Source: Methylomonas sp. LW13 (GTDB lineage Bacteria; Pseudomonadota; Gammaproteobacteria; Methylococcales; Methylomonadaceae). Taken from it: a stretch of 64,000 nucleotides of DNA. The translations under genes were made by a program, and so were the position numbers. The stretch spans positions 3,410,001-3,474,000 of the forward strand of contig NZ_CP033381.1 in assembly GCF_016865255.1 (NCBI RefSeq). The letters run 5' to 3'. The notes under the pieces were generated by a model. It searched no databases and was not told the origin of the DNA. It was given only the letters and a program-made list of their open reading frames with translations. This document shows, piece after piece, positions 38,703 to 55,885 of this stretch (positions are counted from its first letter, which is position 1; each line of letters begins with the position of its first letter).

Positions 38703-39970
38703 GAAAATTTCCTTAAAGATACTAAAACCGGGTAACTCATGATTATCAACATGAAAAGCAGACAAAATGGACGAATATATGCACCAAATGTCAATCCGGT
38801 TGATACATCCACGTAATGCTGCGAAAGAAAACTAAATTGATTGAACTCAATTATCGGACCAACCACAAAATCCAGAGGAATCAACAGCACAAACATGATT
38901 ATCCTTCTATATTTATTAGCATAACTTCCAATTAAAATTGCACTTAAATATGGCAGTAACAAAATAACTGCATACCCACCAGGGGAATCAGTAGCGACCA
39001 TCATAGAAAGCAAAACAACTACGCTTAATTGCTCCCAAGTAAAAAAATGAGCTTTTCGCGCCGATAAAAATAAAATAGACGCCGCAACAAAAAGAACAAA
39101 CCACCTTAAAAAGTGCGCAGTCAAATAGAGGATTACCGGAATCCTGTCCTGATAGTAAAAGACAGCTTTCGACCATGAACTAAGCGAAGTTGTGTACCAA
39201 ACTTTCTGAAAAAAATCCGAATTAACAGCGCCGGAAAAAGAAAACATATTTTCGAAAATTTGCCTATAGTTTCCATCTTCCAAGACAATCATACTTATTT
39301 GATTAATCAATAATGATGCAAAAAAACTTATCAGAAAGTATGTATATTCTCTTTTAAAAAACGGCACGAACCAGAGCACTATTAAATACTGCTTAATATT
39401 TATAGCCAACGCAAGAAATACTGCGCCTTTCCAATTGGCGCCAAAAGCCTGAGAAAAAGCCAACAACATAAAAGCAACTATAATATAGTTGCCTCTTTCT
39501 AACGCATAAAGCCCGGGAAATTGCATCAGCAACGCAAGAAATATAACAATCTCAACCGAAATATATTTTATACCCACCTGCTTTACGATTAATTTTGTAC
39601 ATACAAAAATTGCACAAAAATAAAACAAAAATAGCCAAGCGATAGAATATGGCGAGCAATCTCGTAACTCTGCCGGTAAAACAACGGAAGCACAATAATC
39701 CGGCACTAACATTTGCGCCAATGCAAATACGCTTATCGGATAAATTGATTGCCATATGTCATAACGCCCATCATTTAGACTCCAATAATTTGTATTATAG
39801 AAGTCCATAAATGTATCTAAAGGCGCAAAGAAAAATGGCGGCATTGCATAACCGCTGGATTCAAAATACTTGACAAAAAAGATCAGAAAAACCAACTCTG
39901 AAAAGATTATCCAGACAAACCACCAATGAATATTTTTATTTTTTACACAAACACTATCAGCTGAAGTCAT
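38699..39970 (-). CDS. Polytopic membrane protein, GT87 (DUF2029)-like
   Basis: This 423-aa protein has around ten membrane helices. Features shared with GT87 mannosyltransferase-like proteins are the acidic residue in the first large loop (PLDTFMDFYNTNYW), the ERGNYIIVAFMLLA motif and the LALAINIKQYLIVL helix. It would use a polyprenyl-phosphate sugar on the outer face of the inner membrane. It could alternatively be the polymerase Wzy, which is otherwise missing. It is translationally coupled to the Wzz-like gene. Confidence 0.72.
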   Translation of the reverse strand: MTSADSVCVKNKNIHWWFVWIIFSELVFLIFFVKYFESSGYAMPPFFFAPLDTFMDFYNTNYWSLNDGRYDIWQSIYPISVFALAQMLVPDYCASVVLPAELRDCSPYSIAWLFLFYFCAIFVCTKLIVKQVGIKYISVEIVIFLALLMQFPGLYALERGNYIIVAFMLLAFSQAFGANWKGAVFLALAINIKQYLIVLWFVPFFKREYTYFLISFFASLLINQISMIVLEDGNYRQIFENMFSFSGAVNSDFFQKVWYTTSLSSWSKAVFYYQDRIPVILYLTAHFLRWFVLFVAASILFLSARKAHFFTWEQLSVVVLLSMMVATDSPGGYAVILLLPYLSAILIGSYANKYRRIIMFVLLIPLDFVVGPIIEFNQFSFLSQHYVDVSTGLTFGAYIRPFCLLFMLIIMSYPVLVSLRKFS

Positions 39971-40000: not shown

Positions 40001-40426
40001 TTAAGATAACTTACTTTGCGCACCATTCTTTTTAAAAGAAAATCGGCGATGCAAGATATAACTGCTTATCACAGTAATAGATACTATAATTGCTTGGGCA
40101 ATCAATGTATGTAGATTAAGTCTCTCGACCAAAAGAGGTAATGCTATTAAATTAAAACCAAAAGCACCAAGGTAAACCATATTAAACCTAAAAAATTCTT
40201 TCAACCACCGCCCTTTCACGCGAAACACATAAATCCTATAACCCAAATATGCATTAATCACCGATACAAAATGACTTATGATTAAAAGCCACACATAATG
40301 TAAATCATGGTGTAGGAAAAACCAAATAACTGCAAAAAAACCATACCCAAAAGCGGTATTGTACAAACCTACAAATAAATAACGAATTTTTTCGTTACCC
40401 CAAAAACGTTTAGTTATTGAACCCAA
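40001..40426 (-). CDS. GtrA-family membrane protein
   Basis: This 141-aa protein has four predicted membrane helices with the GtrA opening (IRYLFVGLYNTAFGYGFFAVIWF). The start is probably TTG at 40424-40426, preceded by a GAAAG. It overlaps the upstream GT2 by 17 nt. Together they form a GtrA-GtrB pair: GtrB-type GT2 makes the undecaprenyl-phosphate sugar and GtrA helps it cross the membrane. The GT87/GT-C proteins downstream are candidates for the final transfer. Confidence 0.87.
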   Translation of the reverse strand: MGSITKRFWGNEKIRYLFVGLYNTAFGYGFFAVIWFFLHHDLHYVWLLIISHFVSVINAYLGYRIYVFRVKGRWLKEFFRFNMVYLGAFGFNLIALPLLVERLNLHTLIAQAIIVSITVISSYILHRRFSFKKNGAQSKLS

Positions 40427-41351
40427 CTTGCTTTCTCACGATAAAATTAGGTCGATTCTTCACTTCCTCGTATATCAAACCAATATATTCTGCAACAATA
40501 CCCAACATAGTAAATAATATTCCGAACATCAAAAACATAACGGTCATAATGGTCCCATATCCAGCAAACGGCACACCCCAGAATATTGCTTTTACTATTG
40601 TCCATACTAATAGGATAAAAGACGCCGCAGATATGGTTATTCCCAATATAGTAATAAGCTTTAAAGGCACATAAGAATGGGCCAATATGCCTTTTAACGC
40701 CAGTTCGATAACCTTGAAAGTGTGAGCTCCTGATACGCCGGCAAAACGTTCGGCACGCTCATGCTCAATACCTATGGATTTATATCCCACCCAGGCGAAT
40801 AGTCCACGAATAAAACGGTTGCGTTCGTGTATGGAATTGATGGTTTCGTATACTTTTCTATCAATCAGCCTGAAGTCGCTAACATTTCTGGGAACCATGC
40901 CGTTGGTCAAACCGTTGGCCACCCAATAAAACAATTGCGAGTTAAAACGGCGAATTAAGCCCGTGCCATTACGTTTGGTAACAATACCGTAAACGTTTTC
41001 ATATCCCTCTTCCCATTTTTTGATGAACTGAGTTATTAAATGTGGTGGATCTTGCAAATCCGCAGTCATGATCACGGCAGCATCACCAGACGCATAATTC
41101 AGTCCAGCTGTAATGCCGCCATCCATTCTAAAATTACGCGCCAGTTGCACAATTTTAAACCGCGGATCTTTCTCATGTACCGCGCAGAGCTTTTCGTAGG
41201 TATTATCTTGAGAACCGTTCTCTACGATAATAGCTTCAAAATCGTATGCGCTATTTTCCGCAAATACTGCTGTTAATTGTTTAGCCAATTCATCAACATT
41301 GTCCTGCTCGTTATAAGCAGGAATTACCACTGAGATTAGTTTTCTATTCAT
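40410..41351 (-). CDS. GtrB-like polyprenyl-phosphate glycosyltransferase
   Basis: This 313-aa GT2 protein has VVIPAYNEQDNVDELAK, VENGSQDNT, NFRMDGGITAGL and the DxD motif TADLQDPPHL. Two C-terminal membrane helices follow (KLITILGITISAASFILLVW and YGTIMTVMFLMFGILFTMLGIVA). This is the GtrB/DPM1 architecture. It overlaps the downstream gtrA and follows the TPP enzyme by 11 nt, placing loading of a sugar on undecaprenyl phosphate immediately after the sugar-building cassette. Confidence 0.9.
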   Translation of the reverse strand: MNRKLISVVIPAYNEQDNVDELAKQLTAVFAENSAYDFEAIIVENGSQDNTYEKLCAVHEKDPRFKIVQLARNFRMDGGITAGLNYASGDAAVIMTADLQDPPHLITQFIKKWEEGYENVYGIVTKRNGTGLIRRFNSQLFYWVANGLTNGMVPRNVSDFRLIDRKVYETINSIHERNRFIRGLFAWVGYKSIGIEHERAERFAGVSGAHTFKVIELALKGILAHSYVPLKLITILGITISAASFILLVWTIVKAIFWGVPFAGYGTIMTVMFLMFGILFTMLGIVAEYIGLIYEEVKNRPNFIVRKQVGFNN

Positions 41352-41362
41352 ACTGGATATGT

Positions 41363-43144
41363 TTATTGCAAATATTGCGCTACTACGGAATATAGATTCT
41401 CATCCAAGTCCGGAGTCATTTGGTGCAAGGGATTTGATTGCATCGAACCTGTTTCCGTTACCCTACTGGTAATTTTGGGAAAATAGGTTTGTTCCGGATC
41501 TATCGGTACAACAAACCCAGCCGGTTCATCGCTTGCGAATAGGCGTTGGAATTCCGGGTCTTGCTCGAAATTGGCATCGAGTTTGATACAAGGCAGATTA
41601 AAGGCTTTAAATAAGGTTAGCCAATCCGGCAAACCCAATCCCGAGGACTGGTCGCAACCAATATAGGCACCATTAAAATAATTTCTTTGCGTCATGCGAA
41701 TGGATGCATAGCCATTATCGTTAAAAATGAAAATTTTCAGATTTAACTTATTGACAGCAACCGTGCCCAACTCCTGTAAATTTTGGGCAAATCCACCATC
41801 GCCTTCCACTAGAACTGTCCTGCGCTGCGGATAGGCGAAAGCCGCGCCTATTGCTCCGCTCAAACCGTACCCCATCGATGCCAAGCCCTTGTTTGTCACA
41901 ATGTGTTGGCCGCGCTGTTGGGCGAAGGTTTGCATCATCACGGTAAAGGCTCCACCGCTACTGCAAGGAATGACATTATCCGTGTCTCGGCAGTGTACCG
42001 ACAAACGGCTGACAAAATCGTACGGCGATAAATAATGCTCTGCCGTGTTATTGATCGGCTCGATCAACGGCAATTGGGCTTTCACTTTTTGGCAAAAAGC
42101 CACCCATTCGGCATGCTCGCCAAGGCTAGCTGCCGCCAATGCTTGTAACACTTGATTGGCATCGCCTTGCAAACCGCAATCGACGCGGGGATGGCCTTTG
42201 CTAAGCTCGGTAGGGTCGCATTCCACTTGCACTACTCTGCCGTTAGGTACGAACTCCTGCCAGTTAAACCCGGTTTGTTGCAGACCCAAACGGGTTCCCA
42301 GTGCGATCAGCAAATCGGCTTGTTGCATCAATAAATTGCTGTAACGTTGCCCCCAGGTATTGGGGCGGCCAAAATACAAAGGGTGATCCGCTGCCACCCT
42401 ATCCGCGCCATTCCATGTGGTTGCCAAAGGAATACCCATGGGTTCCAAAGCCTCGTATATCTTTTCTACCGTCTGTCTGGCAACACCCGCTCCAATCAAT
42501 AAAAACGGCCGTTTTGCCGTGCGAACATCGTCGATTAGGCGTTGGATTTCGGCTGAATGTATAGGTGGAATTGCTTGTTTAGCGGCTGGAACAAATTCGC
42601 ATAGCGGATCGTTTACATCAACTGGCGCACCTTGAATATCCAACGGAATTTCAAGAAACACCGGACCTTTGCGGCCTGTAACCCCGGCGTCGATAATCCG
42701 ATTAAATGCCTCACAGGAAATCAAGCTATCCATCAGCACTGATTTTGAGGTGATCGGCTTGACTATATCCACACCATCAATCTCTTGAATGCCGCGCTGG
42801 CGTACTTGTTGCCGGCAAAGATCGGCTGTCTTTACTTGCCCACCTATCACCAACAATTCCCGGCTCTCCAAATAAGCACCCGCCACTGCGGTGACAATAT
42901 TGGTTAAGCCGGGACCGGCGGTTACCAGAGCAAAGGCTTTGCCATCGGTGCTTATTTCGTTGAAATATTCTGCTGCTATACCGGCTGCCACCTCATGCAC
43001 CACGCTAACGCATTTGAAATGACGATTCACGCTGGCGAGAATGTGCATGATATTGCCGCCCGCCACGTAAAAGCAGTGGGTATATCCTTTTTCTTTTAAC
43101 CAATCGGCCAATAGATCGCTATATTTTATGGTCTTGTTTTGCAT
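41363..43144 (-). CDS. Thiamine-diphosphate carboligase, YerE/acetolactate-synthase-like
   Basis: This 593-aa ThDP enzyme has the catalytic Glu E51 (VVHEVAAGIAAEYF), a central domain of the acetolactate-synthase type, and the ThDP motif from GDG (448-450) to NDNGYAS (475-481). Its neighbours are rfbH, rfbG and rfbF, the order seen where YerE adds an acetyl group from pyruvate to C4 of CDP-3,6-dideoxy-4-ketohexose in yersiniose synthesis. It is not the housekeeping acetolactate synthase: no regulatory-subunit gene accompanies it. The donor and acceptor are inferred from context and are the key open point. Confidence 0.83.
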   Translation of the reverse strand: MQNKTIKYSDLLADWLKEKGYTHCFYVAGGNIMHILASVNRHFKCVSVVHEVAAGIAAEYFNEISTDGKAFALVTAGPGLTNIVTAVAGAYLESRELLVIGGQVKTADLCRQQVRQRGIQEIDGVDIVKPITSKSVLMDSLISCEAFNRIIDAGVTGRKGPVFLEIPLDIQGAPVDVNDPLCEFVPAAKQAIPPIHSAEIQRLIDDVRTAKRPFLLIGAGVARQTVEKIYEALEPMGIPLATTWNGADRVAADHPLYFGRPNTWGQRYSNLLMQQADLLIALGTRLGLQQTGFNWQEFVPNGRVVQVECDPTELSKGHPRVDCGLQGDANQVLQALAAASLGEHAEWVAFCQKVKAQLPLIEPINNTAEHYLSPYDFVSRLSVHCRDTDNVIPCSSGGAFTVMMQTFAQQRGQHIVTNKGLASMGYGLSGAIGAAFAYPQRRTVLVEGDGGFAQNLQELGTVAVNKLNLKIFIFNDNGYASIRMTQRNYFNGAYIGCDQSSGLGLPDWLTLFKAFNLPCIKLDANFEQDPEFQRLFASDEPAGFVVPIDPEQTYFPKITSRVTETGSMQSNPLHQMTPDLDENLYSVVAQYLQ

Positions 43145-43159
43145 TGATTGTTTGCCAAC

Positions 43160-44473
43160 TTATTGACGGATACCAAAAAAGATTTCTATTTTCTCGGCAA
43201 CAAATTCCAACATCTCGGTGGTTAAGGCCGGATAAATACCGATCCAAAAAGTTTGCCGCATAATTCTATCGGTCACATCCAATGAGCCGGAAATTCGATA
43301 TTGTCTGCCTTTCATATAGGGCTGACGGGTCAAGTTTCCGGCAAACAGCAAGCGGGAGCCGATTTTGTATTTATCCAGATATTTCAACAATTCCACGCGC
43401 TCGTGACCTGAGTCTTCCTTCAGCGTGATAGGAAACCCAAACCATGAGGGATCCGATCCCGGTGTGGCTTCCGGCAGAATCAAATACTGCTCGCAAGTAG
43501 CCAAGCGTTGCTTCAGGAATTTAAAATTACGTTTTCTGATTTCAATCAATTCCGGCGCACGCTCTAACTGCGCTAAGCCACAGGCCGCCTGCATATCGGT
43601 AATTTTTAAGTTATAACCCAAGTGCGAATAGGTGTATTTGTGGTCGTAGCCTGCCGGCAAATCGCCTAACTGCCAACCGAAGCGTTTTTTACAGGTATTA
43701 TCAACACCGGGGGCGCAGTAACAATCCCTTCCCCAATCCCGAAACGACTCGATGATAGTTTTCAGACGGCGACTGCTGGTAAATACCGCGCCACCCTCGC
43801 CCATGGTGATGTGGTGAGCAGGGTAAAAACTGAGCGTACCAATATCGCCGAAGGTACCGACATTACGGCCCTTGTAGGTTGTGCCCAAGGCATCACAGCA
43901 ATCTTCTATCAACCAGAGATTGTATTTTTTTGCGATTTCGACGACTTTATCCAGGTCAAACGGATTGCCCAGCGTGTGGGCAATCATAATTGCTTTGGTT
44001 TTAGGCGTGATGGCCGCCTCGATTTTACTGGGATCGATGTTGTAGGTTGGTATTTCCACATCGACAAATACCGGAACAAGGTCGTAAAGCAGAATGGGAT
44101 TAACCGTTGTGGGAAAACCGGCCGCTACGGAAATGACTTCATCGCCTTTCTGTAAGGCACGATCACCCAGTTTTTCGGATGTCAAACAGGCAAAAGCCAG
44201 CAGATTCGCAGAGGAACCGGAATTGACCGTCAACGCGCTGCTAACCCCGATAAACTCTGCCAATTGCTTTTCAAACTGGTCGTTAAATCGTCCGGTAGTC
44301 AACCAACCGTCCAGCGAGGCTTCGACCATATAACTAAGTTCTTTAGCGCCGAGAATTTTACCCGAAGGCGGCACTACGGACTGTTCCGGAACGAAAGCTT
44401 TTTCGGCATAACGTTCGGCGGCGTATTGTTCAACCAAATCCAAAATCTGCGCTTTTAATGTATTTTCTGTCAC
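43160..44473 (-). CDS. rfbH: CDP-4-keto-6-deoxyglucose 3-dehydrase (RfbH/E1)
   Basis: RfbH is the PMP- and iron-sulfur-dependent dehydrase that removes the C3 hydroxyl of CDP-4-keto-6-deoxyglucose. The 437-aa protein has His at position 220 ([12 protein letters not shown]) where other family members have the PLP lysine, so it uses PMP. Its cysteines C193, C251, C253 and C261 fit the E1 spacing C-X57-C-X-C-X7-C for the 2Fe-2S cluster. It starts at GTG. The NADH-dependent reductase partner (E3/RfbI/AscD) is not in the window. It lies between rfbG and the TPP enzyme. Confidence 0.94.
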
Positions 44474-44498: not shown

Positions 44499-45581
44499 TT
44501 AATGTTGATCAGCCGTCAAAAACTGCTCTAACTGCTCCACGCAGACTTGCCGCATATCCTTGCCTTGTTGATAGGCCAGGTTCCAGTCGACAATCATCGC
44601 CAACGCTTGGGCCAGAGTCCAACGCGGTACCCAACCCAGAAGGGTCTTGGCTTTGGAGCAATCAAGCTTCAAATAGTGCGCTTCATGCGGCTGCTCACTA
44701 CCATCGATTTGCCAACTTGCGCCATTGCCCCATAAATCTGCCAGTTTTTCCAATATCCACGATACGGGTTGCGCATCTGCTTCGCCAGGCCCGAAATTCC
44801 AGCCCTCCGCATATCGGCCGCCTTGTTTATACAGTTGTTCTGCCAGCAGGACATAGCCGGTAACCGGCTCCAGTACATGCTGCCAAGGCCTGATGGCCGT
44901 AGGGTTACGAATCGTCACAGCCTCCCCTGCCATGAAAGCCCTAATAATATCGGGGATTAAACGATCTTGAGCCCAATCCCCGCCGCCGATCACATTACCG
45001 GCACGCACCGACGCCACCGCCACACCGTGCTCAGCGTAGCGTTCGCTGGGAAAAAAGGAATTACGATAGCTGGCAGTCACCAACTCTGAGCAGCCTTTGC
45101 TGTTGCTGTAAGGATCGAAGCCGCCCATCGGCTCGTTTTCACGGTAGCCCCACAACCATTCCTTGTTTTCATAGCATTTGTCGCTGGTGACTATCACGAC
45201 TGACTTTACCGACGCAGTGTGCCTGACCGCCTCTAGTAAATTAACCGTACCCATCACATTGGTGGCATAGGTTTCCACCGGCTGTTGATAGGAATAACGA
45301 ACAAGCGGTTGCGCGGCCAAATGAAACACAATCTCAGGTTGAAAACTTTGCATTTCCGCCATCACGCTGGCTAAATCGCGAATATCGCCTTCAACGTGCT
45401 GCAGTACCGAAGCCACATCAGCCACTTGGAATAAGCTGGGCGCAGTAGGCGCCGGTAACGCATACCCTTTGATCTCCGCACCTAACCGGTGCAGATATAA
45501 CGCCAACCAACCGCCTTTAAATCCGGTGTGCCCGGTTATAAAAACCCTTTTGCCTCGCCAAAAATCGCTATGCTCTACCAT
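44499..45581 (-). CDS. rfbG: CDP-glucose 4,6-dehydratase
   Basis: RfbG converts CDP-glucose to CDP-4-keto-6-deoxyglucose with bound NAD. This 360-aa extended SDR has [16 protein letters not shown] (NAD-binding), [13 protein letters not shown] and the catalytic pair in [13 protein letters not shown]. The VTSDKCY motif distinguishes it from dTDP-glucose dehydratase RmlB (STDEVYG). The ATG overlaps the rfbF stop by 7 nt. An upstream TTG in the same frame lies within rfbF and has no support. Confidence 0.95.
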
Positions 45582-46342
45582 ATTTTCCACGGTGCTTTTT
45601 GCTGTTGCCAAAGCTGTTCCAAATGCTGTTTATCTCTTAATGTGTCCATGGGTTGCCAGAAGCCTTTGTGGAAATAAGCGTGCAGCTGATTGCTGTTCGC
45701 CAGGCGCTCCATCGGTTCTTTTTCCCATAGCGTTTCATCGCTATCGATTAAATCGAACACTGCCGGTGACAACACAAAAAAACCGCCATTGATCCAGGCA
45801 CCGTCGCCCTGCGGTTTCTCCTGAAAACTCTTGATGCGGCTACCCACCAATTCCAAGGCACCAAACCGGCCGGGCGGTTGCACGGCGGTCACTGTTGCGG
45901 CGTCATTGTGAGAATGATGAAAATCGATCAACGCATGAATGTCGACATCGCCGACCCCATCCCCGTAAGTAAAACAGAATGTTTCATCGCCGACATAATC
46001 GCGAACTCTTTTTAAGCGACCGCCCGTCATGGTTAACTCACCGGTGTCAACCAAGGTCACCTTCCATGGCTCTGCATATTTTTGATGCACCTGCATCTCG
46101 TTATGCTCCATATCGAAGGTCACATCCGACATATGTAAAAAGTAATTCGCAAAATACTCCTTAATAATATAGCCTTTATAACCCAAACATATTATAAATT
46201 CGTTAATTCCATAATGAGAATATAACTTCATTATATGCCATAAAATAGGCCTGCCGCCTATTTCAATCATCGGCTTAGGCTTCACCGAGGTTTCTTCATT
46301 AATACGAGTGCCCAATCCACCCGCAAGAATAACCAACTTCAT
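45575..46342 (-). CDS. rfbF: Glucose-1-phosphate cytidylyltransferase
   Basis: RfbF makes CDP-glucose from CTP and glucose-1-phosphate and commits carbon to CDP-3,6-dideoxyhexoses. The 255-aa protein begins with the nucleotidyltransferase signature [32 protein letters not shown] and contains [10 protein letters not shown] with the metal-binding Asp. Length and motifs match RfbF rather than RmlA. It is coupled to rfbG by overlap. Confidence 0.95.
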
Positions 46343-46374: not shown

Positions 46375-47376
46375 CTACCCACTACATGTATTCAAATTAC
46401 GAATATACTCGGCAGTTTCTAAAATCTGTAGATCCAGACCTGTTACGGGAAATTCGAACCCCTTTATAATGTCTTTAATAGGCTGCTCATTTCCCAAATA
46501 GCTATCGGGTTCCCCATTTATCATATTCGGACGTTCAACTGTTAAGTCAGCAGCATTAAGGAGATTGCATACTTTTTCAGCTAACTCACCCACTTCCACC
46601 GTTTCATCACCCACGGTGTCGAAACAGACGATGTTTTCGAAACGTTCCGAAAACATCAGGCGAATACAGATCAGCAGTAAATCCAGTATGTAAATATAAG
46701 ACCGAAACACGGGCTTATTTGCCCGAATTAACACATTTTCTCGGGCTACGACATTTGCAATAATCGAGGACAAGGCATAAGCATTTAGCTTATTGATATA
46801 TGGCCCGCTTAGATTAAATATTCTCGGGATAAGAAGTTTTATATCAGCTTTACGGCATATCTCTTGAAATCGCAACTCATCTTCATATTTTAATCTACCA
46901 TACAGATTTGCAGATTCATCTCTATTACTATCGTTTAAATAATCGTAGACTGCTCCGGACGACGACAATAGCACAGCTTTTACCTGTGATTGTTCCAATA
47001 CCTGTGTCACCAAGCCCTGAATAACTTTATTCAAGCGAATATATTCATCGTCTGAATATCCGCCAACCTTATCCTTGGTTAAAAACGCAAAGTGAAACAA
47101 ATAGAGAGTATGTTGCGTATGCCGATGGGTGATTTCCGCCAAAGGTCTAACAGATACCGTACGGCCATCAGCCAATACTATCTGCTGTTCGCGCGATCCA
47201 TAGCCTGATACCCGCTGGTTAAATTCATCGCCGTACAAAGCGGAGAACAATTCCAGAGTTGCCCGACCTAACCAGCCGCTGGCACCGGTCACAGCAATAT
47301 GGCTTTGTTTACTAAATAGGTGATCTAATATAAATGAATAATCAGCGCCAAACGCTTTTTCGAAATCAAAAGCCAT
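46375..47376 (-). CDS. NAD-dependent sugar epimerase/dehydratase-like protein
   Basis: This 333-aa extended SDR has [16 protein letters not shown] (residues 29-44) for NAD(P) binding, [12 protein letters not shown] with the catalytic Ser, and YGRLKYEDE with the YxxxK pair. A region of about 25 residues before the glycine motif is longer than usual. The substrate cannot be assigned. It may reduce or epimerise the branched keto-sugar, as YerF reduces the acetyl branch in yersiniose synthesis. Its ATG overlaps the stop of the cyclase homologue upstream (TAATG). Confidence 0.78.
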
Positions 47377-48452
47377 TATTTGTAGCTCTGACTAATGACT
47401 GAACTAATCGCAGACTTCAAATTGATTATATTTGCCTCGGTTTTATCGATAAATAACCGTTCTAACGCTCCGGAACCATTCACACTGATAATAATAAAAT
47501 GACTGGTGGAATGCTTTTTATCGGATATAAAACACTCAAAGACTTTTTCCACATCAATTCGCTGGATAATTTCCTTCAGCATCGGAATTTCATCCAATAA
47601 GCCAATGACATAATCTTTCAACTGTTGAGTATCCGCCGGAATGTGCTCCAGGCCACCGCTCACTTGGGCATAGTTAATAGCAATCAGCATGCCTAACCCA
47701 ACCGCTATGCCATGGCTCACTTCAAAATTGGAAGCACCTTCCAAAGCATGCCCGAAGGTATGACCAAAATTCAGTAATAAACGCTCGGCCTTATCAAATT
47801 CATCAATTTCGATAAACCATTTTTTTGCTTTTAAACTTAATTCAATGACGTCCGCATACCCTTCTACATTCATATCCATTTGCGGATTTAACCGCATATA
47901 CTCAGAAAAACACGAACTTCCTTTGGCATAGCAAATCTTCACGGCCTCGCACAATCCGGCGATTTTCTGTTCTGAGTTGAGGGTTTTTACTAAATTCGGA
48001 TCAATTATAATGGTTTCCGGGGGATGGAAGTTTCCAACCAGATTTTTATAACGTCCAACATTGATAGATGATTTACCCCCAATACAAGAATCCACCATAC
48101 CCAATAGAGTGGTGGGAATATAATCCCATTTGATACCGCGCATATAAATCGATGCACAAAAGGTGGCTATATCCTGCAGGCTACCGCCACCGACGGCCGT
48201 CAATTTAGCTTGCCTTGTTAAGGCTAAATCTCGCATTTTTACGATTATCTCGGGTACGGATGTCAAACTCTTGGTTTCTTCATTCGCCGGCACCGCAATA
48301 ACCTTGGCATTCCCGGAAAAAGCCGTTTCAAAAAAGTTATCGCATAACACGGCGCTATTCTCATCTTGCCGTTGTACTTCGGCAAAAGCACCGTTTTCTA
48401 TTACCACGCGATAATTTGCAATACTGGATTGAATATCAAACGATACGGACAT
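47376..48452 (-). CDS. 3-dehydroquinate synthase homologue (sugar-phosphate cyclase) in a polysaccharide locus
   Basis: This 358-aa sugar-phosphate cyclase superfamily protein has GGGSLQDIATF for NAD binding, IPTTLLGMVDSCIGGKSSIN, and YKNLVGNFHPP. The metal ligands are E169 (LCEAVK), H231 (NFGHTFGH) and H247 (SHGIAVG), and the arginine before LLLN is retained. Superfamily members use NAD and a divalent metal to oxidise, eliminate phosphate and close a six-carbon ring. Location inside an O-antigen cassette between an SDR and an epimerase, overlapping both, makes a shikimate role unlikely. The substrate is unknown. Confidence 0.85.
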   Translation of the reverse strand: MSVSFDIQSSIANYRVVIENGAFAEVQRQDENSAVLCDNFFETAFSGNAKVIAVPANEETKSLTSVPEIIVKMRDLALTRQAKLTAVGGGSLQDIATFCASIYMRGIKWDYIPTTLLGMVDSCIGGKSSINVGRYKNLVGNFHPPETIIIDPNLVKTLNSEQKIAGLCEAVKICYAKGSSCFSEYMRLNPQMDMNVEGYADVIELSLKAKKWFIEIDEFDKAERLLLNFGHTFGHALEGASNFEVSHGIAVGLGMLIAINYAQVSGGLEHIPADTQQLKDYVIGLLDEIPMLKEIIQRIDVEKVFECFISDKKHSTSHFIIISVNGSGALERLFIDKTEANIINLKSAISSVISQSYK

Positions 48453-49128
48453 GACTAAACCCTAAGTCTGCACTAATAAATTGACCTGTTATACCGGTAT
48501 TTTCCGGAGAACACAGAAAATAAACCATATTGGTCACATCCTCCAATGTGGCTAGTCGGTTAAACTTCGTCGCATCGATTATCTTTTTCAGTTGTTCCGG
48601 CGCAAGATTTTGATGAGTCATTGGCGTATCCAATGCCCCCGGCAAAACCGCATTAATTAAATAGCCGTCACGGGCAAGATCGGTTGCAGCAGAAAGCACT
48701 AATCCATGCAACGCGGATTTAGTCATGCAATACGATAACTTGTCCTGTCTGGCGATATTTTGCCATATTGAACTAATCACGGCTAAACGCGCATTTTCGG
48801 CTAATATATTTTCATTTAATAAAATATTTAATGCTTTGACAATAAACAAGCAATTAGCTTTATATAGTTCAATATTTTTATCTGTATCAACATTATAAAC
48901 ACTATCGTTACAATTCATCCCTTGCGCCCAACACACGGCATTGAATTGGCCTGCTGCTTTAAGCGCGGATAAATTCAAATTGTCATCGAATGGGTCAAAT
49001 AAAATATGCTCAGGAAGCGCGCTTTGCTTTCTGGACGCTATAACGACCTGCCATCCCTTGGTATCGAATAATTGGCAAACATGTGCACCTATTGTACCGG
49101 TACCGCCGAAGACCAGAATTTTTTGCAT
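48436..49128 (-). CDS. Short-chain dehydrogenase/reductase
   Basis: This 230-aa classical SDR has FGGTGTIGAHV (residues 7-17) for NAD(P), the catalytic Ser in VISSIW near residue 120, and Y133/K137 in YCMTKSAL. The C-terminal LPGALDTPMTH is standard for the family. It overlaps the cyclase homologue by 17 nt and follows the aldolase gene by 13 nt, so the three are probably consecutive in one pathway. It would oxidise or reduce a hydroxyl or keto group of the product. Confidence 0.88.
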   Translation of the reverse strand: MQKILVFGGTGTIGAHVCQLFDTKGWQVVIASRKQSALPEHILFDPFDDNLNLSALKAAGQFNAVCWAQGMNCNDSVYNVDTDKNIELYKANCLFIVKALNILLNENILAENARLAVISSIWQNIARQDKLSYCMTKSALHGLVLSAATDLARDGYLINAVLPGALDTPMTHQNLAPEQLKKIIDATKFNRLATLEDVTNMVYFLCSPENTGITGQFISADLGFSHVRIV

Positions 49129-49141
49129 TGCTTCGACCGAA

Positions 49142-49945
49142 TTAATTGCTGTCTCTTAATACGTTCCAACGTCCCTCAAGCATCGCTATTCGAGACAGAT
49201 CTTCCTTGGCAATAATGTCGTAATAATCGCGTTTATTCTGTAACCAAAGTAACTCAAAATGCACAGCGTTTAACAAGCCCTTTTCAATATCCGGCTTGTC
49301 TAACGAATGACCGGAAAATATGACTTTTCTGGTTTCAAATCGGGTAAGGTGAACCTGATTAATTTCTTTTAATGCGGGTAATGCATCAATGGAAACACCG
49401 CCGCCCACTACAAAATCCAAACCTTTTTCTTTACACTCTTTGGCAGTGGCAATGCAACATTCCGTTACTTGCGGCTGATTAATGGCATCTCTCGAATAAC
49501 CTCGTGACAAGGAAAAATCTACACGGCCAAACACCATGCCATCGACACCGTTATCTTGCCTGGCTTGATCGGCCAAGCTTTGCACGACTTGAAACGCTTG
49601 TTCGGTTTCAATATTGAATAAAAAATCAGTATCTTGCTGCTCGTCTTCCGTGAATACTTTGTTCTTCGCGTCTATATACTTAGACAGCGCGTAAGTGCTT
49701 TCAATCATCGGCGCGATGATATGATCCACACCAATTAACTTACTCTCTAATAAATCCCGCATTGCTTCGCAACCGCCAATCTTCAAACCCACTTTCAGGT
49801 CAGCTCTGCGCACTATCTCAATCAGCCTCAACAGCTCGTCCGTTCTAGTACCTTCCGCTTCAAACTCGGCTTTAATGCCTTCGTATCCATACTCCTGCTT
49901 TCCCTTCTTTAAAAGGTCGAGCATTGAGCGTTCTCTTTTATTCAT
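49142..49945 (-). CDS. HpcH/HpaI-family aldolase or lyase
   Basis: This 267-aa TIM-barrel protein belongs to the citrate-lyase-beta/HpaI superfamily. Motifs are [33 protein letters not shown], and the metal ligands E113 (NIETEQAF) and D143 ([10 protein letters not shown]). Family enzymes join or split C-C bonds, typically with pyruvate or an acyl-CoA thioester as nucleophile. A strong AGAGGAAG before the ATG at 49943-49945 decides the start. It heads the unusual cassette after rmlC, and supplying extra carbons to a sugar skeleton is inferred. Confidence 0.82.
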
Positions 49946-50040
49946 ATAACTTCCTCTTTTATTGAAATCAAACCAAGCGGCAGCGATAAACTGCATGCTG
50001 CAGTGCCAGCCCGGCGGATATAAACATGTTAAATGTTAGG

Positions 50041-50580
50041 CTAACAGGCATCCTTGAACGTTGCGCCCAGCAAATCCTTGCTCGAAAGTTGCGGCACGCC
50101 CTCAAATGGCCAGGCGATTTTCAAATCTGCATCATTCCAGGTAATGCAACGCTCATATTCGGGCGCATAATAATCAGTGGTTTTATATAAAAACTCGGCT
50201 GTTTCGGACAGCGTTAAAAAGCCATGCGCAAATCCCTCTGGTATCCACATTTGCTGTCGATTTTCCACAGAAAGTATCTCGCCGACCCACTTTCCGAATG
50301 TAGGGGAATTCTTACGAATATCCACCGCCACATCGAACACCTCTCCCTGGACCACCCTCACCAACTTGCCTTGCGCCTTAGGCGGCAATTGGTAATGTAA
50401 TCCGCGCAATACTCCTTTTTGAGATTTGGAGTGGTTGTCTTGAACAAAATTGACACTTAATCCTGTCAGCTCCTGAAAAACTTTTTGGTTGAAGCTTTCA
50501 AAGAAAAAACCACGTTCGTCACCGAATACTTTTGGTGAAAATAAAACGACATCGGGTATAGCAAGTCTAGTTGCTTGCAT
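50041..50580 (-). CDS. rfbC: dTDP-4-dehydrorhamnose 3,5-epimerase
   Basis: RfbC/RmlC epimerises C3 and C5 of dTDP-4-keto-6-deoxyglucose on the route to dTDP-L-rhamnose. The 179-aa cupin has the family motifs FGDERGFFFESFNQ, FVQDNHSKSQKGVLRGLHYQ (catalytic His) and WIPEGFAHGFLTLSE. Its ATG overlaps the rfbA stop (TAATG). Last of the rmlBDAC set. Confidence 0.97.
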   Translation of the reverse strand: MQATRLAIPDVVLFSPKVFGDERGFFFESFNQKVFQELTGLSVNFVQDNHSKSQKGVLRGLHYQLPPKAQGKLVRVVQGEVFDVAVDIRKNSPTFGKWVGEILSVENRQQMWIPEGFAHGFLTLSETAEFLYKTTDYYAPEYERCITWNDADLKIAWPFEGVPQLSSKDLLGATFKDAC

Positions 50581-51464
50581 TAAAACACCTGCTTATTCAA
50601 TAGGCCCAGTAAATACTGGCCGTAGCCATTTTTCGCCAATGGTTTGGCCAATTTTTCGATTTGCTCATCGCCAACCCAGCCGCTACGCCAGGCGATTTCC
50701 TCCGGACAGGCGATTTTCAAACCCTGCCGGGTTTCGATGGTTTCGATGAAATTGCTGGCCTCGATCAAACTGGCATGAGTACCCGTATCCAACCAGGCAT
50801 AGCCGCGACCCATGATTTCGACGCTAAGCTGATTTAGGTCCAGATACATTTTATTGACGTCGGTAATCTCCAACTCGCCGCGCGGCGACGGCTGTAAATT
50901 GGCGGCTATATCGACGACTTGATTGTCGTAAAAGTACAAACCGGTAACTGCATAATTACTTTTTGGCTGCGTCGGTTTTTCCTCTAGCGAAGTTGCCCTA
51001 CCCTGAGCATCAAAGCTGACGACACCGTAGCGCTCCGGGTCATTGACATGATAGGCAAAAACCGTTGCCCCTGAGGATTGATCGGTCGCGCGTTCCAATT
51101 GAACGTGTAAATCGTGGCCGTAAAAAATGTTGTCACCCAATACCAATGCACTGGGTTGCGCGCCGACAAAATCCCTACCGATGATAAAAGCTTGCGCCAA
51201 CCCGTCGGGACTGGGTTGTACGGCATATTGCAGATTAATCCCCCAATCGCTGCCGTCACCCAATAAATGCTGAAACAAAGGGGTGTCTTGCGGCGTGGAA
51301 ATGATCAAAATATCGCGAATCCCCGCCAACATTAGCGTGCTGAGCGGGTAATAAATCATAGGCTTGTCGTAAATCGGCAGCAGTTGTTTGGAAACCGCTT
51401 TCGTTACCGGATACAGCCGGGTGCCGGATCCTCCGGCCAGGATGATGCCTTTGCGCTGGTTCAT
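50580..51464 (-). CDS. rfbA: Glucose-1-phosphate thymidylyltransferase
   Basis: RfbA/RmlA makes dTDP-glucose from dTTP and glucose-1-phosphate. The 294-aa protein begins [31 protein letters not shown] and has VLGDNIFYG with the metal-binding Asp, plus [20 protein letters not shown]. The ATG is chosen because GGAAAG lies eight nt upstream. The GTG two codons earlier overlaps that site. It is coupled to rfbD, whose stop is 2 nt away. Confidence 0.97.
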
Positions 51465-51466
51465 AG

Positions 51467-52363
51467 TCACTTTCCGTACAGTTCAGACAACATTCGCTCG
51501 ACACCCTTTTGCCAAGCCGGCAGTTGTAAATCAAACACGCTTTGCAACTTTTCGGTGTTCATACGTGAGTTTAATGGCCGCTGCGCCGGCGTTTGGTAAA
51601 CGCTGGTGGGAATTGCCGTAACCGATTGTTTGTCGGTTTTCAGCGCCAGTCCGGCTTGACGGGCATAGTCAAGCACCAAATGTGCGTAGTCGTACCAACT
51701 GGTTTCGCCGCTAGCGGTTAGATGATAAACACCAGCCACTTCAGGTGTTTTCAAGGCATGACGAATGGCGTGGGCACTCACATCCGCCAGCAATTCGGCG
51801 CCGGTTGGCGTACCGATTTGATCGTTAATCACCGATAGCTGTTGCCGTTCTTGCGCCAGGCGCAGCATAGTTTTGGCAAAGTTATTACCTCTGGCTGCAT
51901 AAACCCAACTGGTCCGAAAAATCAAATGCCGGCAATCGCTGGCCTGAATGGCTCGTTCCCCAGCCAATTTGCTTTGCCCATAGACATTCAACGGCCCAAC
52001 CTGATCATCTTCCCGCCAGGGTTTATCACCGCTGCCGTCGAATACGTAATCCGTCGAATAGTGCAGCAACCACGCATCGATACGTTTGGCTTCTGCCGCC
52101 AAAACTCCCGGCACCACCGCATTGATCGTATTCGCCAAGTCGCTTTCCGACTCGGCCTTATCCACTGCGGTATAGGCAGCAGCATTGACGATGACATCGG
52201 GACGCAGCGCGCGAACCGTTTCGGCAATCCCGTTGGGGTTGCTTAAATCGCCGCAATAATGTTGGTCGAATCTGTCAAGCGCAAGCAATTCGCCCAAAGG
52301 CGCCAAACTGCGTTGCAACTCCCAACCCAGCTGGCCATTTTTACCGAACAATAAAACTTTCAT
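51467..52363 (-). CDS. rfbD: dTDP-4-dehydrorhamnose reductase
   Basis: RfbD/RmlD performs the last step to dTDP-L-rhamnose, reducing C4 with NADPH or NADH. This 298-aa extended SDR has [28 protein letters not shown] and the catalytic STDYVFDG with YGQSKLAGE. Order of the rhamnose genes here is B-D-A-C. Confidence 0.97.
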
Positions 52364-52387
52364 TCACTCAACCATGCAAAGCATTGA

Positions 52388-53458
52388 TCACGCAGTGCGC
52401 CCTGCATAGTTTTTATCGAGCCAGGACTGGTAGTCACCGGACAACACATTGCTAACCCAGGCTTGGTTATCCAAATACCACTGCACGGTTTTGCGAATGC
52501 CGGTCTCAAAGGTTTCCGCCGGTTTCCAGCCTAGCTCCCGTTCCAGCTTGCCGGCATCGATGGCATAACGTCTGTCGTGCCCAGGCCGGTCGGTGACATA
52601 GGTAATCTGTTCGGCATAGGATTTGCCGTCGCTACGCGGCTGCAGCTCATCCAGAATACTGCATAGCGTGTTGACTACATCCAGATTGGCTTTTTCGTTC
52701 CAACCGCCGACGTTATAAACCTCGCCAAGCTTGCCGGCTTCCAGCACCCGGCGAATCGCGCTGCAATGATCCTTCACAAACAGCCAATCGCGTATCTGTT
52801 GACCGTCGCCGTATATCGGCAAAGCTTTGCCGGACAAGGCGTTCTGAATGCACAGCGGGATGAGTTTTTCCGGGAAATGATAAGGACCGTAATTGTTGGA
52901 GCAATTGGTAGTCAATACAGGCAAACCGTAAGTATGGTGATAAGCACGCACCAAATGATCGCTGGCGGCTTTACTGGCTGAATAAGGACTATTGGGTTGA
53001 TACTGGTGGGTTTCAGCGAACGGCGCATCGGTCTTTTCCAAAGAACCGTACACCTCGTCGGTAGACACGTGCAGTAAACGAAAAGCCTGCTTGGCCGGCT
53101 GTTCCAAGTTGTTCCAGTATTGCCGTACCGCTTCCAACAAACGGAAACTGCCGACGATATTGGTTTGAATAAAATCTTCCGGTCCGTGGATGGAACGATC
53201 AACATGTGATTCGGCAGCAAAATTGATCACGGCCCGAATCCGGTACTTTTGCAGTAAACTCAGCAGCAAATCGTAATCCGCAATGTCACCTTGAACAAAT
53301 ACATGCCTGTCATCGTCATGTAGAGAAGCCAAATTCTGTAAGTTACCCGCATAGGTCAATTTATCCAAATTGACGAGCAATTCGTCGCTTTGCGCCAACC
53401 AATCCAATACAAAATTGCTGCCGATAAACCCGGCCCCACCGGTGACTAAAATACTCAT
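52388..53458 (-). CDS. rfbB: dTDP-glucose 4,6-dehydratase
   Basis: RfbB/RmlB produces dTDP-4-keto-6-deoxyglucose, the branch point for rhamnose and for the 4-amino sugar made by WecE. The 356-aa protein from the chosen ATG starts SILVTGGAGFIGSNFV. It has HVSTDEVYGSL with the catalytic Asp-Glu, and YSASKAASDHLVR with Tyr/Lys. An upstream codon adds 22 unrelated residues. It is the first gene of the polysaccharide locus. The 110-bp gap upstream has no ops/JUMPStart sequence. Confidence 0.97.
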   Translation of the reverse strand: MSILVTGGAGFIGSNFVLDWLAQSDELLVNLDKLTYAGNLQNLASLHDDDRHVFVQGDIADYDLLLSLLQKYRIRAVINFAAESHVDRSIHGPEDFIQTNIVGSFRLLEAVRQYWNNLEQPAKQAFRLLHVSTDEVYGSLEKTDAPFAETHQYQPNSPYSASKAASDHLVRAYHHTYGLPVLTTNCSNNYGPYHFPEKLIPLCIQNALSGKALPIYGDGQQIRDWLFVKDHCSAIRRVLEAGKLGEVYNVGGWNEKANLDVVNTLCSILDELQPRSDGKSYAEQITYVTDRPGHDRRYAIDAGKLERELGWKPAETFETGIRKTVQWYLDNQAWVSNVLSGDYQSWLDKNYAGRTA

Positions 53459-53568
53459 TTTTAAAGTTTTCTTATTTTTTCTAACCGTCTGCCCGACGAA
53501 AAACGCTATTATTACCGGGGCCATTGTACCTTAGTACCATCCTTCAGTGTCTAATGATTCTGCAATCC

Positions 53569-54252
53569 TTAAGGCAAAAAAAGTTTAAACCTCGCCCCAC
53601 CCAAACGACTTTCGTTGTCGATCCGCACAAATCCGTTTTTCCCGGCATTTTTGTGCAGGCCGGCCATTACCGACACAAAATACAAACCCAGGCCGGTATT
53701 TCCCGACACCCAGTCCAATTCGGCAGTATCGTTTAAGTCCGCGGTTAAAAAATGAGGCGGATAACCCGCACCGTCGTCTTCGATGGCGATGGTTAGATAG
53801 CCGTCCTTCTCAGTCACGGCAATCAATACGGTTTTGTGGGTATAGCGCAACGCATTATTCAAGACAGCTGCCAGCGCATTGCTGATGATGGCGTTATCGC
53901 AGTAGCACATCTCGTCATCGCCACAATCCACTTGTAGATCAATGTTGTGCAATCCAGCCAAGCGCGCCTGTTGATGAATCGCTTCATCGAGAATATCGAT
54001 TACCGGGCATTCTTCAATATGCAAACTAAATTTTTGCGAATCGACCTTATACATCACCAGCAATTGCATCAGACTGTGATTAATACGAGCCGCTTCGAAT
54101 TCCAACTGATTTAATTCGGCAGACGGGCCGTCTTGTTTGGCAGCAGTTTGCCTAACCAGCTCCAGCAAGGTACCCAGTGAGTTTTTTATATCGTGAACGG
54201 TTGACGCGAGAATAGTCGGAAACAAATCGTTGTTTTTAGGATGGGTTTGCAT
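53569..54252 (-). CDS. Soluble sensor histidine kinase
   Basis: This 227-aa cytoplasmic kinase has no membrane helix and no obvious input domain. The phosphoacceptor is H20 in STVHDIKNSLGTLLEL. The ATPase domain shows the N box (NNALRYTH), G1 (IEDDGAGYP) and G2 (NTGLGLYFV) in order. It starts 4 nt after the response-regulator stop, and a longer reading overlaps that gene. The signal probably arrives through its partner protein, since the kinase itself has nothing to sense with. Confidence 0.85.
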   Translation of the reverse strand: MQTHPKNNDLFPTILASTVHDIKNSLGTLLELVRQTAAKQDGPSAELNQLEFEAARINHSLMQLLVMYKVDSQKFSLHIEECPVIDILDEAIHQQARLAGLHNIDLQVDCGDDEMCYCDNAIISNALAAVLNNALRYTHKTVLIAVTEKDGYLTIAIEDDGAGYPPHFLTADLNDTAELDWVSGNTGLGLYFVSVMAGLHKNAGKNGFVRIDNESRLGGARFKLFLP

Positions 54253-54256
54253 GGTT

Positions 54257-55885
54257 TTAAGCCTTGACCGCTTGAGACTGCCGCAATTTCGCATACTCCA
54301 TTTGTAATATCCCCAGCTTATGTGGATCAACGCCAATTTGCTTGGCTTTAATAAATAAAGCTCTGATGCGCTGATTTTTTTCTTCGCAAAACTCATTAAC
54401 CTTCAAATCATGAATCATGATCTTCAACATATTCACGATGATGGTTTTATTATCCGGCATAGTCAGAATGGCCTGTTCGAACAAATCCAATGCTTCGGAA
54501 AACTTACCCTGTTTATAAAGCGCCACCCCTTTGTTGTTAGTCGCAATCAAAGCCTGCTTGGTTTTTTGAATCAGAATTTCCGAGTGATTATCCATGCCAA
54601 TGCCGCTTTGCATGCGGCGTAAATCGTTCAAAAATTGTTCGTCGTCGATATGTGCATGAATCAGATCGTAAAGTATTTCTTCGGCTTTATCGTGTTCATC
54701 GCTGAGGAAGCAGGTTTTCACTACCTCCAACTGCAAGTCCCTGGGCGCTTTATTACCCAAGCGGCTGCATATATCCACCGCTTTTAGCAACGCTTTCTGC
54801 GACAACTCGTCGTTACCCAGCGTTTTATACACATCCGCCTCCACAGTCGAGGCGCGTAATTCCGCCTCGGGATGATTGGCATATTCTTTGCGCATTTCCT
54901 CCAGCGTTTTTAATGCCTCGTCCGCGGCATTGGTTTTGGCATAAAGCTTGGCCAATCCGGCAAAATCACTGCAGGAACGATGCACGGAATGCTTGCCCAG
55001 CTTCACCACCGACTTATAGGCCTTCTCGGCGGTTTCCAGATTGCCGTTCCGGTCCGCCGCTTCGGCCAGTTTTTTTTGCCTGAGTATCGATTGCGGCGAC
55101 AATTGCAAAGCCTGCTGCAACACACTTTCGACGTCGCTGTACTGATCCAATGCTTCGTAGGCCTTGCCCAGCCAGTCGTAACACTCCATCAACATCGGAT
55201 TGTCAGCCACCAGACTCTGAAAACCGGCAATCGCTTGTTCGATGTTATTGTTTTGAAAATCGATCACGCCCAAACCCAATCGGGCCCAGGGCAGTTCTCT
55301 ATGCTCCAGAACTTCATGATATATCTGCCTGGCCTTGTCGAAATCGCCGGCGGAAATCGCCAGCTCGGCACGCATTTTCAGCAAATGCAAATGCATTTTC
55401 TTGTCCCCGGACAGCAATAGTGCATCGCATAACTGAATGGCTTTAGACAAATCGCCAGCGGCCAACGCCTTGTCGACACTGGCCATAAATTCCTTGCGGG
55501 CAAAATTACGTGTCAGCCGACTCATTAGTTGCTGCGCGTTGAAGGGCTTGGTCAGATACTCATCGGGCTTGCTGTCCATAACCCCCAACACCGCACTGGT
55601 AGTCTGCTCGGCGCTGATCAATACAAACACGCAGCGATAATCGATTAAATTCCGGTGTCTGGCTTCCTCCAGCACCTGCTGCCCGTTCTTACCCACACCC
55701 AGGTTGTAATCGCACAACACAATATCGAAACTGCTTTTGCTCATGGCATGGATCGCGGCTATGCCATTATCCGCTTCGACAACAGTGACGGCTTGCAAGC
55801 TATAAAGCATGTCGCGCATCGCTTTCCGAAACACGGGATTGTCCTCGACAATAAGGATACTTTTGCCGGCTAAACTAAAACTCAT
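54257..55885 (-). CDS. Response regulator with TPR output region
   Basis: This 542-aa protein has an N-terminal CheY-like receiver (ILIVEDNPVFRKAM, phosphoacceptor D59 in VLCDYNLG, switch Ser in VLISAEQ, Lys in YLTKPFN). About 400 residues of tetratricopeptide-like helices follow (for example EQAIAGFQSLVADNPMLMECYDWLGKAY and FSEALDLFEQAILTMPDN). There is no DNA-binding domain, so the output is protein-protein contact. It pairs with the kinase downstream. Its 5' end faces htpG divergently. Confidence 0.87.
   Translation of the reverse strand: MSFSLAGKSILIVEDNPVFRKAMRDMLYSLQAVTVVEADNGIAAIHAMSKSSFDIVLCDYNLGVGKNGQQVLEEARHRNLIDYRCVFVLISAEQTTSAVLGVMDSKPDEYLTKPFNAQQLMSRLTRNFARKEFMASVDKALAAGDLSKAIQLCDALLLSGDKKMHLHLLKMRAELAISAGDFDKARQIYHEVLEHRELPWARLGLGVIDFQNNNIEQAIAGFQSLVADNPMLMECYDWLGKAYEALDQYSDVESVLQQALQLSPQSILRQKKLAEAADRNGNLETAEKAYKSVVKLGKHSVHRSCSDFAGLAKLYAKTNAADEALKTLEEMRKEYANHPEAELRASTVEADVYKTLGNDELSQKALLKAVDICSRLGNKAPRDLQLEVVKTCFLSDEHDKAEEILYDLIHAHIDDEQFLNDLRRMQSGIGMDNHSEILIQKTKQALIATNNKGVALYKQGKFSEALDLFEQAILTMPDNKTIIVNMLKIMIHDLKVNEFCEEKNQRIRALFIKAKQIGVDPHKLGILQMEYAKLRQSQAVKA

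Follow-up and report, generated by a model that had tools for sequence, protein, structure and literature searches.

An AroB-like cyclase homologue in a Methylomonas polysaccharide locus: a proposed non-cyclising phospholyase for caryophyllose-type branched sugars

Introduction

3-Dehydroquinate (DHQ) synthase (AroB, DHQS) oxidises its substrate at C5, eliminates the phosphate, re-reduces C5 and closes the ring by attack of the enol on C2. A gene for a homologue of this enzyme is found among polysaccharide genes in a 64,000-nucleotide stretch of the Methylomonas sp. LW13 chromosome (hereafter the window), which raises the question of what a sugar phosphate cyclase homologue (SPC) does there. 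A sequence-only reading had described it as an intact enzyme in an O-antigen locus that may define another cyclase class beside the 2-epi-5-epi-valiolone and 2-deoxy-scyllo-inosose synthases. The follow-up described here supports the polysaccharide setting and leads us to favour, on balance, a different function: members of the SPC clade would keep DHQS chemistry, stop before ring closure, and feed a route to caryophyllose-type branched sugars. This reading draws on gene integrity, clade membership, active-site residues, fold predictions, the association of genes across loci, and agreement with the structure published for caryophyllose.

The open-licence literature searched contains no paper joining dehydroquinate synthase with O-antigen, aldolase, or cyclitol, or with lipopolysaccharide and branched-chain sugar, and in a wider search of it caryophyllose appeared in none of the matches listed. 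A family name that covers part of the clade (TIGR04425) already exists; the function proposed here was not found in that literature. For bradyrhizose, the available part of a 2016 paper calls the genes unknown and merely assumes an 11-gene cluster (PMC4743980).

The SPC gene and its neighbourhood

The SPC gene (P0001; 47376..48452, minus strand) is a complete open reading frame (ORF) from ATG to stop and encodes 358 aa with the Pfam domains PF01761/PF24621 (DHQ_synthase, 120.8 bits; DHQS_C, 83.3 bits; both above cut-off). Its predicted structure has a mean pLDDT of 91.9, and the top matches among solved structures are DHQ synthases. As noted in the sequence-only reading, it overlaps a short-chain dehydrogenase/reductase-type (SDR) gene, by 17 nt, and an epimerase-like gene, by 1 nt. 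The SDR oxidoreductase (48436..49128, minus strand; PF13561/PF00106) is the proposed reductase of a C6 methyl ketone, and the same 17-nt overlap occurs in 13 of 24 loci measured. The NAD-dependent epimerase/reductase-like protein (46375..47376, minus strand; PF01370, 51.9 bits), a proposed branch-ketone reductase, finds no sequence match in the PDB at E <= 1e-5.

Next to the SDR gene lies ALD (49142..49996, minus strand), assigned as an HpcH/HpaI-like class II pyruvate aldolase by its predicted fold, its PF03328 score being 23.1 bits with a cut-off of 25. The model (pLDDT 88.6) best matches HpaI/HpcH pyruvate aldolases at about 14% identity and a TM-score near 0.55, and a homologue in another locus (L128) reaches 35.4 bits, above the cut-off. 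The real start is probably 49945, since most aligned relatives begin at or near codon 18.

On the other side, all on the minus strand, follow the genes of a CDP-3,6-dideoxyhexosulose pathway: a glucose-1-phosphate cytidylyltransferase (45575..46342; TIGR02623, 477.1 bits, cut-off 300.25), a CDP-glucose 4,6-dehydratase (44499..45611; TIGR02622, 508.5 bits, cut-off 278.45), and an RfbH-type CDP-6-deoxy-4-hexulose 3-dehydrase (43160..44473; NF011936, 748.5 bits, cut-off 423). They are accompanied by a YerE-like ThDP enzyme (41363..43144, minus strand; PF00205, PF02776, PF02775), whose proposed role is to transfer a 2-keto acid, with decarboxylation, to the CDP-4-keto sugar. This protein is acetolactate-synthase-like, lies below the cut-off of every family among the best 25 of 48 NCBIfam families, and has PDB entry 8rph as its best match (295 bits). 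The window thus holds the gene content of a YerE-like branched-sugar cassette, with a ThDP enzyme of the decarboxylase superfamily beside CDP-3,6-dideoxyhexosulose genes. A family 2 glycosyltransferase (GT; 40410..41351, minus strand; PF00535) and a GtrA-like membrane protein (40001..40426, minus strand; PF04138) come next. Upstream of ALD and in the same direction lie rmlC, rmlA, rmlD, and rmlB for dTDP-L-rhamnose (50041..53524, minus strand; TIGR01221, TIGR01207, TIGR01214, and TIGR01181, all above cut-off). A search of the genome for an FGGY kinase, run without a positive control, gave no match; with no such kinase in the cassette, its acceptor aldehyde would have to carry phosphate already, a point against the route proposed below.

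Two large membrane-protein-like ORFs point in the same direction at 36387-38006 and 38699-39970. They have no Pfam match (E 0.001) and no NCBIfam match (E 1e-20), and are possibly polysaccharide glycosyltransferases or polymerases. Just upstream of the rml genes (53569-55885), a TPR-repeat response regulator ORF overlaps a small histidine-kinase-like ATPase ORF.

The 5.23-Mb genome, a single contig, has two DHQ_synthase genes, the window SPC and a 360-aa AroB elsewhere, so that the separate aroB for which the sequence-only reading had asked is present; the ORF overlapping it reads, by eye, as a shikimate kinase. At least two DHQ_synthase matches are found in 11 of 13 other genomes with clade loci and one match in the remaining 2. 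Cassette-type SPCs are patchy in the genus, occurring in 7 of 36 genomes searched, the window's own included.

Place in the superfamily

Among NCBIfam models, the SPC best matches the hypothetical equivalog TIGR04425 (P_lya_rel_AroB, 'AroB-related putative sugar phosphate phospholyase (cyclizing)'), with 272.7 bits, below the cut-off of 400. Against the housekeeping AroB model TIGR01357 it scores 243.9 bits, below the cut-off of 305, and the NF004852 profile has no over-cut-off match in 80 genomes. Two cassette SPCs pass the TIGR04425 cut-off (L029, 414; L041, 406.6).

A quick tree of 81 rows was built with AroB, DOIS, EEVS, and DDGS as references, a set from which aminodehydroquinate synthase and EboD (PMC5133447, in excerpt) were left out; three loci (L025, L048, L050) were dropped. 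A branch with SH-aLRT support of 97 sets a 36-row clade with the window SPC apart from all four reference types. The clade comprises the window type, an FGGY type, the mycobacterial rows, an SIS type, and L061; the over-cut-off TIGR04425 members L029, L041, and L165-L168 belong to it, those of the SIS type included. Within the clade, the window SPC falls into a subclade of 13 rows (support 99). DOIS lies outside the clade on a long branch, so its position is unsure. Uniting the window type and the order's own AroB in one group, a grouping named after the tree had been seen, was rejected (p-AU 2.26e-05). The SPC thus belongs to a distinct clade of SPCs and is not a housekeeping AroB. The sequence-only reading had named as fatal to itself an SPC inside housekeeping AroB in a genome with no other aroB; what was found is a second aroB and a rejected AroB grouping. 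Its idea of a new cyclase class stands as far as the separate clade is concerned. The class is not undescribed, since TIGR04425 already contains part of it, and another carbocyclising enzyme is disfavoured because closing the ring would use up the 2-keto acid that the neighbouring enzymes need.

All 36 clade rows share Q93, W109, and C123. The 42 DHQS-like rows have G/T/C/S, mostly F/Y (W in 2), and S/A in these columns, respectively. One scan pattern contained the letters QD; Q is also present in rows retrieved by other queries or by HMM (L165-L168, L170, and five mycobacterial rows).

Active-site residues

The sequence-only reading had listed E169, H231, and H247 as an intact metal site, together with the phosphate-contact Arg and a GGK motif. 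All three metal ligands are present, with the two His 16 positions apart, and the other elements are R105 and G125-G126-K127. Altogether, 14 DHQS ligands (R105, D121, K127, N137, E169, K172, K210, R224, N228, H231, H235, H247, K312, K313) are kept in all 18 ALD-type, 7 FGGY-type, and five mycobacterial rows; the K172 column is H in L034, L168, and L170 (SIS type). AroB and the SPC have the fold, the NAD and metal site, and the carboxylate and phosphate ligands in common, and differ in clade, in Q93/W109/C123, and in the lack of shikimate genes near the SPC.

The other cyclases belong to the same superfamily and diverge at the residues K210, R224, N228, and H235, two of which are changed in DOIS, three in EEVS, and four in DDGS (one reference sequence each). 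EEVS and DDGS (PDB 4p53, 5tpr), which likewise come from a natural-product or carbohydrate context, carry M at K210, D or A at N228, and P at H235, where the window SPC has the DHQS letters; on the tree, both lie far from it. DOIS (2-deoxy-scyllo-inosose synthase; PDB 2d2x) shares the YPP letters with the SPC; its single reference sequence differs from the SPC in having G for R224, E for N228, and other letters in place of GGK. Membership of either group was rejected on these letters and on tree position, as was housekeeping AroB on the separate AroB gene and the p-AU value. K210 and R224 (and N228) are presumably carboxylate-side contacts, going by residue roles in the Aspergillus enzyme AnDHQS. 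Since these residues and H235 are kept as in DHQS, the SPC substrate likely bears a carboxylate and is a ulosonate. All DHQS catalytic residues are present in the SPC, and nothing there explains a failed ring closure, which is the main weakness of the non-cyclising reading.

Gene association across SPC loci

Neighbourhoods were compared between 38 SPC-clade loci (window excluded; L023-L026 and the five mycobacterial loci are near-copies) and 64 other DHQ_synthase loci; the underlying genome scan kept the best 80 of 578 relatives. In 30 of the 38 clade loci, a gene of the ALD (24), HMGL (5), or NeuB (1) type stands no more than 9 kb away; enzymes from three Pfam families, all able to produce 2-oxo-3-deoxy acids, thus stand in for one another in such loci. 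A ThDP gene is found in 28/38, an SDR gene within 400 nt of the SPC in 35/38, and an FGGY kinase gene in 12/38. The corresponding numbers for the 64 other loci are 1 (2-oxo-3-deoxy-acid enzyme), 0 (ThDP), 0 (adjacent SDR), and 0 (FGGY); distant homologues may have been missed in these controls because the reference proteins were mostly taken from clade loci. The pairing of a ThDP enzyme and a 2-oxo-3-deoxy-acid enzyme beside the SPC extends over several phyla and viral contigs. In an Omnitrophica contig, two tandem ALD-like ORFs, one of them short, were seen (L041:2798-4224).

In a viral collection, eight contigs (L184-L191) encode an SPC relative, and seven of these also carry a ThDP gene with a NeuB (6) or ALD (1) gene, which suggests that phages may move or use the cassette; the eighth has an SIS gene. 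An SDR gene accompanies the SPC in seven viral contigs, and four show weak FGGY matches. A plasmid collection gave 115 records, all below 60% identity, and the five inspected had no cassette within 4-6 kb.

Eight clade loci have no 2-oxo-acid enzyme (L034, L040, L061, L165-L168, L170), five of them with an SIS gene. The SIS domain is the fold of phosphosugar isomerases. Loci L165, L167, L168, L170, and L034 combine a clade SPC with SDR, SIS-domain, and CTP_transf_3-like genes and lack ALD and ThDP; in L167 only, Pfam also confirms genes for a Gfo/Idh dehydrogenase and a 2-hydroxyacid dehydrogenase. We propose that these loci represent another pathway using the SPC clade. No ALD or ThDP gene lies near any of the four over-cut-off TIGR04425 members detected in 299 genomes; three have SIS and CTP_transf_3 genes as neighbours, so that substrates may differ within the clade. 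None of the 24 ALD loci in the comparison has an SIS gene.

The CTP_transf_3 family includes enzymes activating Kdo and sialic acid. One locus (L029) has an SDR-SPC-ALD row with a CTP_transf_3 protein (69.1 bits) and no ThDP gene in the 14 kb examined; its contig breaks off some 1.4 kb upstream of the SDR gene, and a ThDP gene could lie beyond. This arrangement suggests that a 2-ulosonic acid is also released whole from the module and goes on to CMP activation.

Seven ALD loci lack an SPC. By a motif search without a reference protein, a HAD-motif ORF was found in five of them (L126, L127, L128, L137, L138; not L129 or L179), in none of the 24 ALD loci with an SPC, and nowhere in window positions 30001-60000; it was also found in 3 of 7 FGGY-type loci bearing an SPC, and the rows of this comparison are not independent, several loci being cut by contig ends. 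The HAD phosphatase motif in SPC-less loci fits the view that phosphate removal is the step otherwise done by SPC and SDR. Loci L126, L127, and L128 have radical SAM/SPASM, NUDIX, HAD, and epimerase genes in common; L126 and L128 also carry a methyltransferase gene, and the three loci probably make another branched sugar. In the mycobacterial ALD-ThDP locus L179, SDR, SPC, FGGY, and CDP-glucose dehydratase genes were not seen. A transposase-like ORF, presumably of the IS3 type, directly follows its ALD gene (L179:10927-11385), so this locus is not clean as a natural SPC-less control.

Mycobacterial cassettes and caryophyllose

In one genus, regarded as mycobacterial because it has many PE-family matches, the ALD query hit 6 of 248 genomes. 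The SPC query at E <= 1e-45 missed these cassettes and hit 1 of the 248 genomes, at a different locus (L170). Five of the six loci contain ALD, SDR, SPC, FGGY, ThDP, GT, RfbH, and both CDP-sugar genes, and the main ThDP matches in the six are 54-55% identical to the window enzyme. In L180, the gene row is FGGY-SPC-SDR-ALD-ThDP-GT, and identities to the window are 56% for ALD, 55% for ThDP, and 61% for the GT adjoining the ThDP gene. The L180 genome contains the exact published M. marinum mmpL12 primer site about 13 kb from the locus (primer: PMC12507525, in excerpt).

Deleting MMAR_2331, 2332, or 2333 makes M. marinum accumulate LOS-II*, which is devoid of caryophyllose (PMC5706390, in excerpt). 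MMAR_2332 is a ThDP enzyme assigned to caryophyllose (PMC12247030, in excerpt), and MMAR_2333 is a glycosyltransferase (PMC4403928, in excerpt). Because ALD flanks the ThDP gene opposite the GT gene in L180, MMAR_2331 should, by gene order, be ALD. The caryophyllose genes and the YerE/ErwE-type ThDP enzymes thus correspond to the gene set of the window cassette; the five SPC-bearing mycobacterial cassettes differ from it in an added FGGY kinase and an SPC of another subclade. YerE-like ThDP enzymes couple 2-keto acids to CDP-4-keto-3,6-dideoxyglucose, and ErwE prefers longer 4-hydroxy-2-oxo acids (PMC12247030, in excerpt).

Caryophyllose is a 3,6-dideoxy-4-C-(1,3,4,5-tetrahydroxyhexyl)-hexose whose branch ends in CH3 (PMC5706390, in excerpt). 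This branch equals a decarboxylated 3,7-dideoxyheptulosonate, i.e. DAHP minus the 7-phosphate oxygen. If the SPC closes no ring, the caryophyllose chain would be accounted for one-to-one by aldolase, kinase, SPC, SDR, and ThDP enzyme.

Proposed route

The SPC is proposed to be a non-cyclising 3-deoxy-2-ulosonate-7-phosphate phospholyase; the individual reactions, their sequence, the stereochemistry, and the choice of aldehyde acceptor are all inferred. ALD would join pyruvate and a C4 aldose phosphate to a DAHP-like 3-deoxy-hept-2-ulosonate 7-phosphate. The SPC would then oxidise C5, eliminate the 7-phosphate, and re-reduce C5, after which the enol would relax to the methyl ketone 3,7-dideoxy-hepto-2,6-diulosonate, and no carbocycle would form. 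A halt before the last DHQS step would leave a methyl ketone for the SDR and a retained C2 ketone for the ThDP enzyme. With C6 reduced by the SDR, the ThDP enzyme would decarboxylate the 2-keto acid and attach the resulting six-carbon chain at the 4-keto position of CDP-3,6-dideoxyhexosulose, which the cytidylyltransferase, the 4,6-dehydratase, and RfbH would supply. The epimerase-like reductase may finish the branch, yielding a caryophyllose-type sugar for a surface polysaccharide.

A more general form, in which a non-cyclising 'cyclase' clade performs an internal deoxygenation of 3-deoxy-2-ulosonate 7-phosphate to give methyl-terminated 2,6-diketo acids for ThDP enzymes, and elsewhere for CMP activation, may or may not hold, and we lean neither way on it.

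Alternative readings

The SPC could be a true carbocyclase that closes the ALD product to a DHQ-like or epimeric carbocycle, which the SDR reduces for a separate decoration, with the ThDP enzyme using pyruvate independently. The full DHQS active site, the DHQS-like fold, and the word 'cyclizing' in the NCBIfam name agree with this, but ring closure would use up the C2 ketone on which the ThDP enzyme and CMP activation depend, and the recurrence of ThDP and 2-oxo-3-deoxy-acid enzymes beside the SPC across phyla and viral contigs speaks against it. Moreover, the available part of PMC5706390 lists no cyclitol among the M. marinum LOS sugars. We regard a carbocyclase as unlikely, though as a reading to be kept in mind.

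Rather less credible is an SPC that acts after the ThDP step, with the phosphorylated chain coupled to the CDP sugar first and the phosphate eliminated afterwards, the ring being closed or not. The C1' ketone of the ThDP product would sit like C2 of DAHP, and the two genes are close together. Against it, the presumed carboxylate-side contacts (K210, R224, N228) are kept in all 18 ALD-type and 7 FGGY-type rows, and L029 has ALD, SDR, SPC, and CTP_transf_3 genes with no ThDP gene in its 14 kb, on a contig that is cut upstream.

It is improbable that the SPC represents a new subclass of sedoheptulose 7-phosphate cyclases, akin to EEVS/DDGS and making a cyclitol for the polysaccharide: an SIS-domain gene near three of the four over-cut-off TIGR04425 loci could be read in this way, but the window SPC has DHQS letters at K210, N228, and H235, does not group with EEVS/DDGS, and belongs to a locus type with no SIS gene in any of the 24 ALD loci compared. 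A spare shikimate DHQ synthase captured by the polysaccharide locus, although suggested by sequence and active-site resemblance, is very improbable given the separate AroB gene, the rejected joint clade with the order's AroB, the TIGR01357 score below cut-off, and the conserved non-shikimate neighbours.

Implications

If the proposed non-cyclising reading is true, an uncharacterised AroB-like family would gain a function, and the source of the methyl end and of the 2-keto-acid donor of caryophyllose-type sugars would be explained. A superfamily named for ring closure would then also work without it, and branched-sugar loci of bacteria and phages could be mined with the SPC as a marker.
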